DNA from: Thermomicrobiales bacterium
GTDB taxonomy: Bacteria > Chloroflexota > Chloroflexia > Thermomicrobiales > CFX8
Assembly: GCA_023954495.1 (NCBI GenBank)
Contig: JAMLIA010000001.1
Coordinates: forward strand, 1 to 64,000
Direction: 5' to 3'
DNA length: 64,000 nt
The notes under the pieces are model-generated. The model was given only the letters and a program-made list of their open reading frames with translations, did no database searches and was not told the DNA's origin. The position numbers and the translations under genes were made by a program. Shown one piece after another: positions 5,207-56,490 of the stretch. Each line of letters begins with the position of its first letter. The first letter of the stretch is position 1.

Positions 5207-5661
5207 ATGTTTGATGAGTTCAAGGGCTTTGCCGTCACGTTGAAGCGACTTGGCCGTAAGCCCCTCACATTTGAGTACCCGGACGAGAAGCGACCGATGC
5301 CGCCGCGTTTCCGCGGGCTGCCGTCGCTGCGGGCCGATCCGGATACCGGCGAGGCGCTGTGCGTCGCCTGCGGGCTGTGTGCGCGCATCTGCCCGACTGC
5401 ATGGTACGTCTGGAGATGCACGTCGTGCCGTCCGAAGAAGGCGACCGCGAGCTTGGGAGTTTATCCTGCGTTCGGGACGTTGCCTGTTCTGGCGGCTTCT
5501 GCGCCCAGGTCTGCCCGGTCGACGCAATCACGAGCGGCGCATTCGAGCGCTCGGTCATGGACCGCGACGGCCTGATCTACACCAAGACCGAACTTGCCGC
5601 CTTTGGTGCGCAGAATGAAACGTGGTGGGGCGCAGACACGCCCACGTTCTCGCAGAACTAG
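5207..5661 (+). pseudogene. nuoI: NuoI-like 2x[4Fe-4S] ferredoxin, broken by three single-base indels
   Basis: The frame from ATG 5207 reads as complex I subunit I, including CVACGLCARICP. It then loses the reading frame. Conserved sequence resumes in the next frame (RLEMHVVPSEEGDRELG), moves again (EFILRSGRCLF) and returns (GFCAQVCPVDAI...) to the stop at 5661. The pattern is explained by one missing base near 5403, one missing G in the GGG run at 5455-5457 and one extra G near 5491. Correcting these restores both four-cysteine motifs and a product of about 150 residues. It lies 36 nt downstream of the nuoG-like gene, and both would belong to the same electron-transfer complex. Three lesions within 90 bp in a conserved gene suggest local sequence error or decay. 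Confidence 0.8.
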
Positions 5662-5757: not shown

Positions 5758-7185
5758 GTGCCAAAGACGTATCAGTTCTATTGCGCAGGGGAGTGGAGGT
5801 CGAGCGACCAGCCACTTGAGGTGCGCAACCCGTGGAATGACGAGGTCGTCGGCGTCACATCATTCGCCACCGATAAGGACCTCGAAGACGCAATTGTCGC
5901 TGCCGAAGAAGCCTTCGAAACCATGAAGGTCATGCCGGCCTACGAACGAGCCGCTGCGCTTGATCGCCTCGCGGACCGCCTCGAGGAGCGCGGCGAAGAG
6001 ATTGCCGAGCTCATTGCTCGCGAAGCAGCCAAGCCGCTGCGCGACGCGCGCACCGAAGTCATGCGCGGCGTTTTCACCTTACGTATTGCGTCCGAAGAGG
6101 CGAAGCGCATCGGTGGCGAGATGATCCCGCTCGATCTGCTGCCAAGCTCCAAGGGCCGCTTCGGTGTTACCCGCAAGGTGCCCGTTGGCCCCATCGCTGC
6201 GATCTCGCCGTTCAACTTCCCGCTGAACCTGGCGCTGCACAAGATCGCACCGGCAATTGCGTCGGGCAACACTGTCGTGCTCAAGCCGCCCACAGTCGAC
6301 CCGCTCACGATGCTGGTCTTCGCCGAGATGATCGACGAGCTCGACCTGCCAAAGGGCGCAGTGTCAATCATGCCGATGGACCGCAAGACCGGCGACCGGC
6401 TGGTAACCGACGATCGCTTCAAGGTGCTTTCGTTCACCGGCTCGCCGGATGTTGGCTGGGAGATGAAGTCGCGCGCCGGCAAGAAGAAGGTCGTTCTTGA
6501 GCTGGGCGGCAATGCTGGCGTCATTATCGACGCGGGTGCCGACATAGAGCTGGCGGCCAAGCGCGTGCGCGCCGGAGCGTTCGCTTACGCAGGTCAGGTC
6601 TGCATCTCCGTCCAGCGCGTCTATGTGCATCGTGAGATTTACGATCAGTTCTGCGCGAAGCTGGTCGAAGAAGTCCGGTCGATCAAGAACGGCGATCCAC
6701 TCGATCCCGAGACCGAAGTCGGACCGATGATTAACGCCAAAGCCGCCGAGCGGATTGATTCGTGGGTCAAGACAGCCACGAATGAAGGTGCCCTGCTACT
6801 TACCGGTGGCAAGGTGAATGGCCGGTTCTACGAGCCGACCATCATCGTCAACGCTGCCAAGGATTCGTTCGTCTGCTCGCGCGAAGCATTTGCGCCGATC
6901 GTCACCGTCTTCCCGGTCGATAGCTTCGACACTGCCCTGAAAGCCGCCAATGATTCCGTCTTCGGGCTGCAGGCGGGTGTGTTCACGAATAACGTCGAGA
7001 ACGCATTCAAGGCGTTCGATCAGCTCGACGTCGGCGGTGTGATTCTGAATGACATTCCGGTGTACCGCATCGACCACATGCCGTACGGCGGCGTGAAGGA
7101 TTCGGGCCTCAGTCGCGAAGGCGTGCGTTACGCCATCGAGGACATGACCGAGACCCGCCTGCTCGTCGTTAATCGTCTGTCGTAA
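5758..7185 (+). CDS. NAD(P)-dependent aldehyde dehydrogenase
   Basis: 475-residue cytosolic enzyme of the aldehyde dehydrogenase superfamily, oxidising an aldehyde to the acid with NAD(P). The GTG start at 5758 follows an excellent GGAGAGAGGAG site. Visible signatures are the cofactor/substrate segment SPFNFPLNLALHKIAPA, the general-base motif LELGGN, the nucleophile Cys in GQVCISVQ and the C-terminal YGGVKDSGLSREG. The FTGSPDVGWEM and ELGGNAGVII stretches resemble the lactaldehyde/non-phosphorylating glyceraldehyde-3-phosphate group, but the substrate cannot be fixed from sequence. The 3' end overlaps the convergent endonuclease IV gene by 17 bp. Confidence 0.9.
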   Translation: MPKTYQFYCAGEWRSSDQPLEVRNPWNDEVVGVTSFATDKDLEDAIVAAEEAFETMKVMPAYERAAALDRLADRLEERGEEIAELIAREAAKPLRDARTEVMRGVFTLRIASEEAKRIGGEMIPLDLLPSSKGRFGVTRKVPVGPIAAISPFNFPLNLALHKIAPAIASGNTVVLKPPTVDPLTMLVFAEMIDELDLPKGAVSIMPMDRKTGDRLVTDDRFKVLSFTGSPDVGWEMKSRAGKKKVVLELGGNAGVIIDAGADIELAAKRVRAGAFAYAGQVCISVQRVYVHREIYDQFCAKLVEEVRSIKNGDPLDPETEVGPMINAKAAERIDSWVKTATNEGALLLTGGKVNGRFYEPTIIVNAAKDSFVCSREAFAPIVTVFPVDSFDTALKAANDSVFGLQAGVFTNNVENAFKAFDQLDVGGVILNDIPVYRIDHMPYGGVKDSGLSREGVRYAIEDMTETRLLVVNRLS

Positions 7186-8053
7186 GCGCGTCCTCCGGGA
7201 ACGGCGCTCCGATCATGCTACGCAACAGGGCGATGGCTTCGCGATCTTCCGCGAGGTCATTGCCCTTCTCCGTTTCAAGGAGACCGGGCACACCTTCGAG
7301 CCGAGCATCGTTCATCAGGTGCCAGAAGCCGCAAACGCCGATCGTGCCCTGACCAATCAGATGATGGCGATCCTTCTTCGAGCCGTGTGGCTGCTTGGCG
7401 TCGTTGAGGTGAATCGCCTTGATCTGGTCAATGCCGATCAATGAATCGAACTGCGACATCGTCTCGGCGTAGGCTTCCTGCGAGCGGATGTCGTAGCCAG
7501 CGACGAAGATGTGGCAAGTGTCGAAGCAGATCGCTACGCGGCTCCTGTCGTGAATACCGGCGAGCATCGCCCGCAACTCTTCGAACGTTGAGCCCAGGTT
7601 CGATCCCTGTCCAGCGGTCGTCTCCAGAAGCGTGATGGCCTTGATGTCCGGCGCTTCCTCGTGCACGCGATTCATTGCTTCGATGATGCGCGCGATGCCG
7701 GCCTCTGTCCCGCTGCCCGTGTGCGAGCCTGGGTGCGTCACCAGGTATGGGACGCCGAGGAGATCGCAGCGCTCCAGCTCATCACGAAACGCGGCGATTG
7801 ACTTCTCCCAGAGCTCGTCCTTCGGCGATGCCAGGTTGATCAGGTACGAGTCGTGCGCGACGACAGGTCCGATCTGATATTCCTCCAAAGCCGCCTTGAA
7901 CCGCGTTGCCGCATCCGGATCAATCGGCTTCGCCTTCCACTGGTTCTGGTTCTTGGTGAAGATCTGCAACGCGTCGGACTCTACGGAATGCGCGCGTTCA
8001 ACCGCCTTGTCGTATCCACCGGCAATCGACATGTGAGCACCAAGTCGGAGCAT
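7169..8053 (-). CDS. nfo: Endonuclease IV (apurinic/apyrimidinic endonuclease)
   Basis: 294-residue zinc-dependent AP endonuclease of base-excision repair, a TIM-barrel fold. The metal-ligand motifs run in order: HDSYLINLASP, HPGSH, ETTAGQG, CFDTCH, HLNDAKQPHGSKKDRHHLIG and LLETEKG. Length matches the family (about 280-300). It lies 5 nt downstream of the ArsC/Spx-like gene on the same strand and is probably cotranscribed with it. The last codons overlap the convergent aldehyde dehydrogenase. ATG 8053 is the first start consistent with the conserved LRLGAHMSIAGG opening. Confidence 0.95.
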   Translation of the reverse strand: MLRLGAHMSIAGGYDKAVERAHSVESDALQIFTKNQNQWKAKPIDPDAATRFKAALEEYQIGPVVAHDSYLINLASPKDELWEKSIAAFRDELERCDLLGVPYLVTHPGSHTGSGTEAGIARIIEAMNRVHEEAPDIKAITLLETTAGQGSNLGSTFEELRAMLAGIHDRSRVAICFDTCHIFVAGYDIRSQEAYAETMSQFDSLIGIDQIKAIHLNDAKQPHGSKKDRHHLIGQGTIGVCGFWHLMNDARLEGVPGLLETEKGNDLAEDREAIALLRSMIGAPFPEDALTTDD

Positions 8054-8058
8054 GCACC

Positions 8059-8427
8059 CTATCCTGTCTGTTCTGACTGCTCGGCGAGCGCCGCCAGTCC
8101 CTTTTTGTCAAAGCCAACAACAAGTCTCTGGTTGTCGAGAATGAGCGGACGCCGGATCAACGTGGGCTCAACAATCATCTCTGCCAATAATTCATCGGCC
8201 GTCATGGCGTCAATCTCGTCCTTGTGCGATTGGTAGACGCGCGATCGACGAGAAAGGATGTCAGACGGGGAGACATTGGCGCTTTTCAGAATGGCGCGCA
8301 ATTCGTCGATGGTGAGGCGATTGCGGAAAAAGTCGCGGCGATCGTATTCAATGTCAGCGTTGGCGAGGAACTCCTCAGCCTTTTTGCAGCTCGTTCAGGT
8401 TGGGTGAACGAAGGCTCGAACAGTCAT
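8059..8427 (-). CDS. ArsC/Spx-family thioredoxin-fold protein with in-frame UGA at the first redox Cys (candidate selenoprotein)
   Basis: From ATG 8427 (GGAGGAG just upstream) the reading is MTVRAFVHPT, then UGA (8397-8395), then TSCKKAEEFL and onward to the stop at 8059. That is 122 residues, the normal size of the arsenate reductase/Spx family. Family members have CxxC here (Spx-type CTSCRKA), so the UGA sits exactly at the first Cys, giving U11-x-x-C14. The rest is intact, including the IRRPL motif (Arg92/Arg93) and LVVGF. A SECIS-like hairpin starts 14 nt after the UGA. If UGA is read as selenocysteine, this is a redox enzyme acting on disulfides or arsenate. If not, it is a nonsense mutant or sequence error, and only an 80-residue C-terminal piece from a TTG at 8301 could be made. 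No sel genes are in the window. Confidence 0.72.
8362..8380 (-). promoter_or_regulatory. SECIS-like stem-loop downstream of the in-frame UGA
   Basis: On the transcript (minus strand) the 19-nt sequence GGCUGAGGAGUUCCUCGCC folds as GGC/GCC, a bulged U, GAGG/CCUC and a 4-nt loop AGUU. Fourteen nt separate it from the UGA, and 22 nt separate the UGA from the apical loop. A G in the first two loop positions and a bulged U below the upper stem are features of bacterial SECIS elements bound by SelB. GAG GAG UUC CUC also simply encodes Glu-Glu-Phe-Leu, so chance remains possible. Confidence 0.5.
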
Positions 8428-8444
8428 CGCTCCTCCATTTGCTA

Positions 8445-8511: not shown

Positions 8512-9348
8512 ATGGCGCGGGCGACAGTTGCAATAACCGGAAGCACTGGCCAACTCGGCGAATCGATGCTGCGGCTCTGGGAGAGCCGCTGGGACGTCAC
8601 CCCCTTGGGCGGGCAATCGCTCGACCTGACATCGTGGAGCGCAGTGCGCGATGCAATCGCACACGTTCAGCCCGACATCGTTATCCACGCCGCTGCAGCG
8701 ACTGACGTCGATAGATGTGAGCGAGAACCAGACTGGGCCTTTCGAATCAATGCGCTCGGCACCCGCAACGTCGCGCAGGCGACAGCTGCAGTCGGTGCCA
8801 GGCTTGTCGCCATCTCCACCAACTACGTCTTCGACGGCATGAGCCCATCGCCTTACCACGAGTTCGATGCCACCAACCCAATCAGCGTCTACGGCGCGTC
8901 CAAGCACGCCGGTGACCGCGAAGCTCTGGCAGTGTCAAATTCCATCATCGTCCGGACCGCTTGGCTCTATGGCCGGACCGGCCGAAACTTCGTCGCGACG
9001 ATGCGACGACTCATGAGCGAGCGCGATTCGCTGACGGTCGTCAACGACCAGTTCGGCAATCCGACATTCACCGATGATCTGGCCACTGCGGTTGAAGCGC
9101 TGATGGTTGACGCGCCGTCCGGCGTCTATCACGCCGTCAATAACGGCATTGCGTCATGGTTCGATTGGGCGACCGAAATCGCGGCGCTGACAGCAACTAC
9201 AACCGACGTGCAGCCTATCCCCGGTTCGGAGTATCCCCGCGCCGCGACACCGCCCACGAACGGCGCGATGACGTCGCTCGCGTTACCGATCCTTGGTATC
9301 GAGCTACCAGATTGGCGGGACGCATTGCGACGGTGCATCAGCACATGA
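8512..9348 (+). CDS. rmlD: dTDP-4-dehydrorhamnose reductase
   Basis: 278-residue short-chain-dehydrogenase-type reductase that makes dTDP-L-rhamnose in the last step of the rhamnose donor pathway. The ATG at 8512 follows GGAGGG. The NAD(P)-binding motif GSTGQLG, STNYVFDG and the catalytic YxxxK (YGASK) are present, as are the RTAWLYG and QFGNPTFTDDLA blocks typical of RmlD. It is followed with a 4-nt ATGA overlap by a rhamnosyltransferase-like GT2 gene and then a second GT2, so a surface-polysaccharide role is likely. rmlA, rmlB and rmlC are not in the window. Confidence 0.92.
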   Translation: MARATVAITGSTGQLGESMLRLWESRWDVTPLGGQSLDLTSWSAVRDAIAHVQPDIVIHAAAATDVDRCEREPDWAFRINALGTRNVAQATAAVGARLVAISTNYVFDGMSPSPYHEFDATNPISVYGASKHAGDREALAVSNSIIVRTAWLYGRTGRNFVATMRRLMSERDSLTVVNDQFGNPTFTDDLATAVEALMVDAPSGVYHAVNNGIASWFDWATEIAALTATTTDVQPIPGSEYPRAATPPTNGAMTSLALPILGIELPDWRDALRRCIST

Positions 9349-35269: not shown

Positions 35270-36915
35270 AACGACATCAACGCAATCGCGAGCGCGCAAT
35301 TGCCGGGATCGCCTGCCTCGTTCTCGTCGCGCTGGGGGTCAGCCTGCTGCCGCTCTGGCGTGATAGCGACGTCGCACGCGCGCGAGACATCGACAAGTGG
35401 GCGTATTACGTCGGCAACGATCCGACATCGCGCGCGTCGCTCGAACAGAACATCGAGCAGATCGATGTCGTTTCACCCTACTTCTACCACCTGACACCGA
35501 ATGGCTCGATCAAGACATTCGCCCAACCGGATGTCACAGCGTTTGTGAAGGCGCACGGCAAGAAGGTTGTCCCGCTGATCCAGAACGAAGCGCGCTGGGA
35601 CGACTTCTCGAAGCAGATCGACACACCAGAAGAGCGCGACGCCATCGTCGCGAAGCTGGTTGAGGTCGTCGCTACCAACGGCTATGACGGTATCCACATC
35701 GACTTCGAGGGCCTGAACCAGACTGACCGTGAAGCACTGACCGATTTCATGCGGCGACTCAACCTCTCATTCAAGCCACGCGGCTGGATCGTGAGCCAGG
35801 CTGTCATCGCTCGCACGAGCGACGCACCATCGACCTGGGGCGGTGTCTACGACTACAAGGCGCTGGCAGCGGTCAATGATTATGTCGCGATCATGGCCTA
35901 CGACTGGGGCTACGCCGGACGGCCCGATCCCGCGCCGGTCGCGCCGATCTGGTGGGTGCGAGATGTCCTGACCTACGCGCGCAAACAGATGCCCGACAAT
36001 CGCATCCTCCTCGGCATCCCCTATTACGGATACGACTGGAACACCACCAAGGGCCCGCCGGCCACGTCAGTCACGTTTGCTAAGGCAGCAACGTTGGCAG
36101 CGCAAGACGGCGCGGAGAGTGGCTACGACGAGGATGAGGGCTCACCGTGGATTCGATACACAGACGCCGCTGGTGACCAACACACCGTCTGGTACGAGAA
36201 TGCGGCCAGCTTCGAGGAAAAGATCTCGCTCGTCCTCGACCGCAACATCGCCGGCTACGCGACGTGGCGTCTTGGGCATGAGGATCCATCGAGCTGGTAT
36301 GTCGTCAATAGCCTGGCGACACCGGCCGCGAGAGTCCCAGCCTTCAACAGCACCGCAGACCGACTGTACTTTTCAGAAACCGGGCACAGCCTCGCTTACG
36401 GGTTTCTGACCTATTGGCAGCAGAATGGTGGACTCGCTCGGTTCGGTTACCCAAAGACCGAGGAGTTCACCGAATACGACCCGCTTGTCGGCAAGAGCTA
36501 CACAGTTCAGTACTTTGAGCGAGCGCGGTTCGAATATCACCCGGAATTTGCGGGTTCAGAATTTGAGGTGCTGCTCGGCCATATGGGCCGCTGGGCGTTG
36601 GCAAAGCGCGGCATCGATCCGTGGGCATCTGCAACCTCACCGAAGACCGGACTCACCTACTTTGCTGAAACGGGCCACAATATGGGAGCAGAATTTCAAC
36701 AGTACTGGACAATGCACGGCGGTCTGATGTCGTTCGGCTTTCCGATCAGCGAGCCGGTCCGAGAGCGCAATCAGGAAGATGGCAGGACATATCTCGTTCA
36801 ATATTTCGAGCGCGCTCGATTTGAATATCATCCTGAATACGCCGGGACTGATTCAGAAGTTCTTCTCGGATTACTGGGCAATGAGATGCTTCGCGAGCGA
36901 GGATGGGTACGGTGA
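35266..36915 (+). CDS. GH18-family cell-surface protein with two C-terminal repeats
   Basis: 549 residues: a short cytosolic tail, one N-terminal helix serving as signal anchor (about 11-31), then a GH18 TIM-barrel (about 42-340) and two tandem repeats of about 80 residues (about 360-440 and 455-545). The catalytic DxxxDxE motif appears as DGIHIDFEG. The repeats share YF-ETGH...YW--GGL--FG-P--E...VQYFERARFEYHPE-AG...EVLLG, and each contains an LGFP-like core (FGYPKTEEF, FGFPISEPV). The barrel resembles spore-germination YaaH-type GH18 enzymes that act on peptidoglycan, so a cell-wall role is inferred. Confidence 0.85.
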   Translation: MKRHQRNRERAIAGIACLVLVALGVSLLPLWRDSDVARARDIDKWAYYVGNDPTSRASLEQNIEQIDVVSPYFYHLTPNGSIKTFAQPDVTAFVKAHGKKVVPLIQNEARWDDFSKQIDTPEERDAIVAKLVEVVATNGYDGIHIDFEGLNQTDREALTDFMRRLNLSFKPRGWIVSQAVIARTSDAPSTWGGVYDYKALAAVNDYVAIMAYDWGYAGRPDPAPVAPIWWVRDVLTYARKQMPDNRILLGIPYYGYDWNTTKGPPATSVTFAKAATLAAQDGAESGYDEDEGSPWIRYTDAAGDQHTVWYENAASFEEKISLVLDRNIAGYATWRLGHEDPSSWYVVNSLATPAARVPAFNSTADRLYFSETGHSLAYGFLTYWQQNGGLARFGYPKTEEFTEYDPLVGKSYTVQYFERARFEYHPEFAGSEFEVLLGHMGRWALAKRGIDPWASATSPKTGLTYFAETGHNMGAEFQQYWTMHGGLMSFGFPISEPVRERNQEDGRTYLVQYFERARFEYHPEYAGTDSEVLLGLLGNEMLRERGWVR

Positions 36916-56223: not shown

Positions 56224-56490
56224 GGCCGTGCACCCTCTGTTGACCGCGACCCTCCAGCTTACACCGAGCAGTTAGCTCCGGCAGGGTTTCCCCACGTCAC
56301 CCACGGGTGACCACTTAGGGCTGCTTCCTTCCGGATCTGACCCGGTTCGCGGGTCCGCGCCGCGCGGGACCCGGCCTTCAACACCACTTACACGGGCAGT
56401 CCCAAAGGATCGGGCCGAGAAAGGGGATTCCGTCCCGCTAGAGCGGATTGCGGGTATAGGGCACCGCTAGTTCCCCACCTAGCACGACCG
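56224..56490 (-). ncRNA. ffs: Signal recognition particle RNA, long form with Alu domain
   Basis: About 267-nt SRP RNA. The 5' end GGTCGTGC pairs with 3' GCACGGCC. The Alu-domain block CGTGCTAGGTGGGGAACTAG and GCAATCCGCTCTAGCGGG closely matches the Bacillus-type scRNA. The S-domain helix 8 carries GGTCAGATCCGGAAGGAAGC, the Ffh-binding motif. TATACT (minus, 56501-56496) is the -10. A terminator follows at 56166-56201. The long type, as in many Gram-positive bacteria, differs from the 4.5S RNA of Proteobacteria. Confidence 0.95.

Follow-up and report, generated by a model that had tools for sequence, protein, structure and literature searches.

A candidate selenocysteine-containing ArsC/Spx-family protein encoded beside endonuclease IV in Thermomicrobiales-like Chloroflexota

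The ArsC family includes the domain class cd03032, which we take to be its Spx subfamily. Selenoproteins of the ArsC family have been predicted before: 'Arsenate reductase 2' (cd03032; 42 sequences), with selenocysteine (Sec) in a UxxC motif, was predicted in 2008 from ocean metagenomes, and 'Arsenate reductase 1' (pfam03960) carries UxxS (both PMC2398784). The UxxC family is listed again, as Arsenate reductase-like (COG1393), in a 2022 review (PMC9312934). The UxxC selenoprotein of ArsC type considered here is therefore of a kind already predicted; the new parts are the lineage, the comparison of Sec with Cys forms, and the linkage to nfo, the gene for endonuclease IV. In the open-licence literature, no paper was found in which Spx is connected with selenoproteins in a way that bears on this gene, or in which such a selenoprotein gene is linked to endonuclease IV.

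The gene occupies positions 8059-8427 on the minus strand of the window, the whole 64-kb stretch of DNA that was analysed. Translation from ATG 8427 gives 122 codons followed by a TAG stop (8061-8059), and the sole internal stop is a TGA at codon 11 (8397-8395), predicted to be read as Sec; it takes the first position of a UxxC motif (U11-T-S-C14), and an IRRPL motif is present. A ribosome-binding site, GGAGGA, read off the sequence at 8431-8436 (-), lies 3 nt ahead of the ATG. The match to the ArsC model PF03960 runs across the TGA (55.6 bits, cut-off 24; one TGA inside), and no second PF03960 match was found in the genome (3.36 Mb, 152 contigs). The first-pass annotation had described a frame intact save for one UGA, placed at the first Cys of CxxC and followed by T-S-C, with IRRPL present; translation and the PF03960 match bear this description out in all details checked. 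The program-made list of open reading frames had started the gene late, as 80 aa from TTG 8301, and genes of this sort are likely to be called pseudogenes or given late starts by annotation pipelines. A scan of the window for further UGA read-through frames with Sec-like motifs returned a long list, in which the Spx-like gene alone was credible by eye.

Orthologues were read codon by codon in a survey of 61 genomes of the order (Thermomicrobiales-like Chloroflexota) and were present in 26. TGA falls exactly at the first CxxC position in 16 of them, which represent several genera and families, always as UTSC or UTGC and with no other stops; a 17th copy (G006) shares the TGA but is frameshifted beyond it. 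Cys (TGC or TGT) fills this column in eight orthologues and in a broken copy in G047. One TGA is likewise found within the orthologue of the sole other genome of the genus (the congener, G001) and within those of two of the family's three further genomes; the closest relatives, whose codon the first-pass annotation had proposed to compare, retain the UGA without decay. Named database records put orthologues in Thermomicrobiales and in other Chloroflexota, but the motif used to scan them contained Cys, so that UGA forms are under-represented there, and the counts given here come from the survey of the order. On the tree, about four changes between Sec and Cys are needed, with many of the forks weak.

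Downstream of the UGA, dN/dS is 0.04-0.21 in six pairs of close relatives, and third positions vary most; between the window's own genome and its congener dS is saturated. These ratios, with the concentration of change at third positions, indicate that purifying selection acts on the codons past the UGA, which are thus translated and useful. They also bear on the reading of the gene as a pseudogene or a sequencing error, in which a nonsense change would have struck the catalytic Cys codon of a gene once intact. The contig is not free of errors or decay, as a frame-split nuoI-like gene nearby (5207-5661) shows, but the UGA recurs in 16 separate genomes with frames otherwise intact, dN/dS past it is well below 1, and the Sec machinery described below is present, all of which leave this explanation extremely improbable. 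A base-call error is excluded, since the identical UGA is found in independent assemblies. The earlier argument that a UGA at just this catalytic codon is not a matter of chance is thus upheld by its recurrence in intact orthologues and by the selection downstream.

A search for a bacterial SECIS element, also proposed at first pass, found a SECIS-type hairpin with a G in its apical loop. The sequence behind the UGA, GGCUGAGGAGUUCCUCGCC, forms a stem with an AGUU loop at 8380-8362 (-), written GGC-U-GAGG-AGUU-CCUCGCC, the apical loop (8372-8369) lying about 22 nt past the UGA. Most UGA orthologues have a similar hairpin, with G in the loop. Stability was judged against 1000 synonymous recodings per sequence: UGA forms fold more stably than their recodings (mean z -1.41, combined p 8e-6), which does not hold for Cys forms (mean z +0.64), and the two differ with p 1.6e-5, both p values being optimistic because the sequences are related. 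For the window gene by itself the result is suggestive (z -1.72, p 0.10). Counting of hairpin pairs in a single register gave no covariation above shuffles, since the pairing is shifted by one base in some clades, and no Rfam family matches the hairpin.

The genome encodes SelB (327.6 bits, cut-off 242), SelA (407 bits) and SelD (355 bits; G000:C99:7789-8727, minus strand). SelD carries an in-frame UGA of its own at CAG-U-AAKL, the canonical Sec position in SelD, and is a second, independent selenoprotein of the same cell; SelB and the UGA-containing SelD are found in the congener as well. Across the order, SelB is present with the UGA form in 15 of 17 cases and with the Cys form in three of nine (Fisher p 0.008, kinship uncorrected). 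One UGA form (G039:C201:5610-5939, minus strand) occurs in a genome that is 75% complete, where SelB, SelD and tRNA-Sec were not found; the missing factors probably reflect the incompleteness of that genome.

The proposed search for Sec machinery thus succeeded for the three proteins and failed for tRNA-Sec. Neither the window's genome nor its congener yielded this tRNA to Rfam RF01852, to an order-specific model or to ARAGORN run on chosen loci, the best matches being tRNA-Ser, tRNA-Leu and others; a search for the CTTCA/T-loop pattern, made in the window's own genome, likewise found nothing. In three other members of the family (G002, G003 and G004) a tRNA-Sec with a UCA anticodon is clearly present (75-78 bits), but its neighbourhood is not common to the three, and gene order gave no location for it in the window's genome. 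A strong tRNA-Sec match is absent from 15 of the 45 SelB-positive assemblies of the order, or from 13 of 43 if the window's genome and its congener are set aside, and a gap in the draft assembly is therefore the likeliest reason for its absence; the genus may instead have a divergent tRNA-Sec.

The missing tRNA is what speaks for reading of the UGA as Cys, Trp or another residue, through a suppressor tRNA or low-level read-through, rather than as Sec. Such decoding is very unlikely given SelA, SelB and the UGA-containing SelD, the UCA-anticodon tRNA-Sec of the three other family members, and a hairpin placed as SelB-dependent decoding would have it; moreover, no other tRNA with a UCA anticodon appeared among the matches checked. 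On this genomic evidence, decoding of the codon-11 UGA as Sec is predicted with near certainty, and we infer that Sec is actually inserted there. The proposal of a candidate UxxC selenoprotein is accordingly supported by conservation of the UGA, by the SECIS-type hairpin and by SelA, SelB and SelD. That this is a functional selenoprotein gene, as regards Sec decoding and the Spx/ArsC fold together, is highly likely.

The protein stands closest to Spx within the ArsC family. Its score is above the cut-off of the Spx/MgsR model TIGR01617 (86.9 bits vs 75.05) and too low for the stricter Spx models (94.4 bits vs 123), the model for glutaredoxin-dependent arsenate reductase (TIGR00014; 45.3 bits, cut-off 106) and that for ArsC_rel_Se_1 (NF041106; 35.6 bits, cut-off 85). 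The solved structures nearest by sequence are those of Spx, and an AlphaFold model (pLDDT 90.5) has its best PDB match in Spx 1z3e (TM 0.81), with ArsC-related proteins about equal. Arg is invariant at Spx positions 60 and 92 (24 of 24 sequences), and Gly is found at Spx position 52 in none of the 24, which have T, S or another residue there. In Spx, Gly52 is absolutely required for activation through the RNA polymerase alpha subunit, where the protein binds the alpha C-terminal domain (PMC2801614).

These features bear on whether the protein is an enzyme or a Sec-containing transcription regulator of the Spx type, in which the U-C pair would be a redox switch for RNA polymerase binding. Its nearness to Spx in sequence and fold, the TIGR01617 score and the two invariant Arg residues favour a regulator, but absence of the Gly needed for contact with the alpha C-terminal domain and failure of the stricter models count against it, and a regulator is possible but doubtful. 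A more specific form, in which a Sec-based redox switch of the Spx/MgsR type controls transcription and is encoded alongside a DNA-repair enzyme that it perhaps regulates, is improbable. If true, it would be the first selenoprotein acting as a transcription regulator, none being known to us at present. Because Gly52 is absent, a role as a UxxC reductase is favoured over that of a regulator, and we give it about an even chance; the enzyme would probably be a UxxC disulfide reductase or an ArsC-like reductase.

The gene for endonuclease IV, nfo (294 aa; 7169-8053, minus strand), follows the selenoprotein gene after a gap of 5 nt and lies directly downstream on the same strand in 23 of the 26 genomes, the exceptions being G005, G006 and G053. 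Cotranscription of the two, as proposed in the first-pass annotation, is supported by the short gap and the conserved adjacency, and a bicistronic mRNA is predicted from this arrangement. Endonuclease IV repairs oxidative DNA damage, so a selenium-dependent oxidative-stress unit is a reasonable suggestion. On the other side, a divergent gene for an RmlD-like dTDP-sugar reductase (8512-9348, plus strand) keeps its place next to the selenoprotein gene in several relatives. Elsewhere in the window, the NuoI-like ferredoxin gene (plus strand) is broken up among two or three reading frames over some 300 bases, a pattern suggestive of several indels, whether sequencing errors or marks of a decayed gene; a 98-nt tRNA-Gln (CTG) called by ARAGORN at 35400-35497 (-) is not confirmed by Rfam and is probably false; and an ordinary bacterial large signal recognition particle RNA (190 bits) lies at 56226-56487 (-).

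With a UxxC reductase as the preferred reading, the locus may work as follows. SelB, attached to the hairpin that closely follows codon 11, would bring Sec-tRNA to its UGA, and translation would yield a full-length protein of 122 aa with the Spx/ArsC fold, in which selenocysteine is paired with cysteine (UTSC). Its selenol would be expected to attack a substrate that is oxidised or a disulfide, with resolution by Cys14, as in other UxxC reductases of the thioredoxin fold; made from one mRNA with endonuclease IV, the protein would act with it in an oxidative-stress unit. The occurrence of close Sec and Cys forms makes the exchange of Sec for Cys testable in one small protein.

Among known systems, the protein resembles 'Arsenate reductase 2' by description, as an ArsC-family protein in which Sec replaces the first Cys of CxxC. 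That family was described from metagenome reads, whereas the genomes used here are whole ones from an order of Chloroflexota, in which the Sec machinery was tested as well, so that a family of selenoproteins known chiefly as a prediction from ocean metagenomes is now placed in a whole bacterial order; unlike the earlier report, the present analysis also compares the SECIS-type hairpin with Cys forms and describes a conserved link to nfo. 'Arsenate reductase 1' shares Sec at the catalytic Cys of ArsC, but its UxxS motif is without the resolving Cys that UxxC provides. ArsC_rel_Se_1 is likewise a selenoprotein of the ArsC fold, of which the present protein, scoring below the cut-off, is not a member. 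Spx/MgsR proteins (TIGR01617; B. subtilis Spx, PDB 1z3e) share the fold, the position of CxxC and the invariant Arg60 and Arg92, but the protein differs from B. subtilis Spx in having Sec for Cys10 and in that Gly52 is not conserved. Thioredoxin and glutaredoxin selenoproteins with UxxC have the same U-x-x-C pair on a thioredoxin-like fold; the protein described here belongs to a different subfamily and has the additional helical domain of ArsC/Spx.
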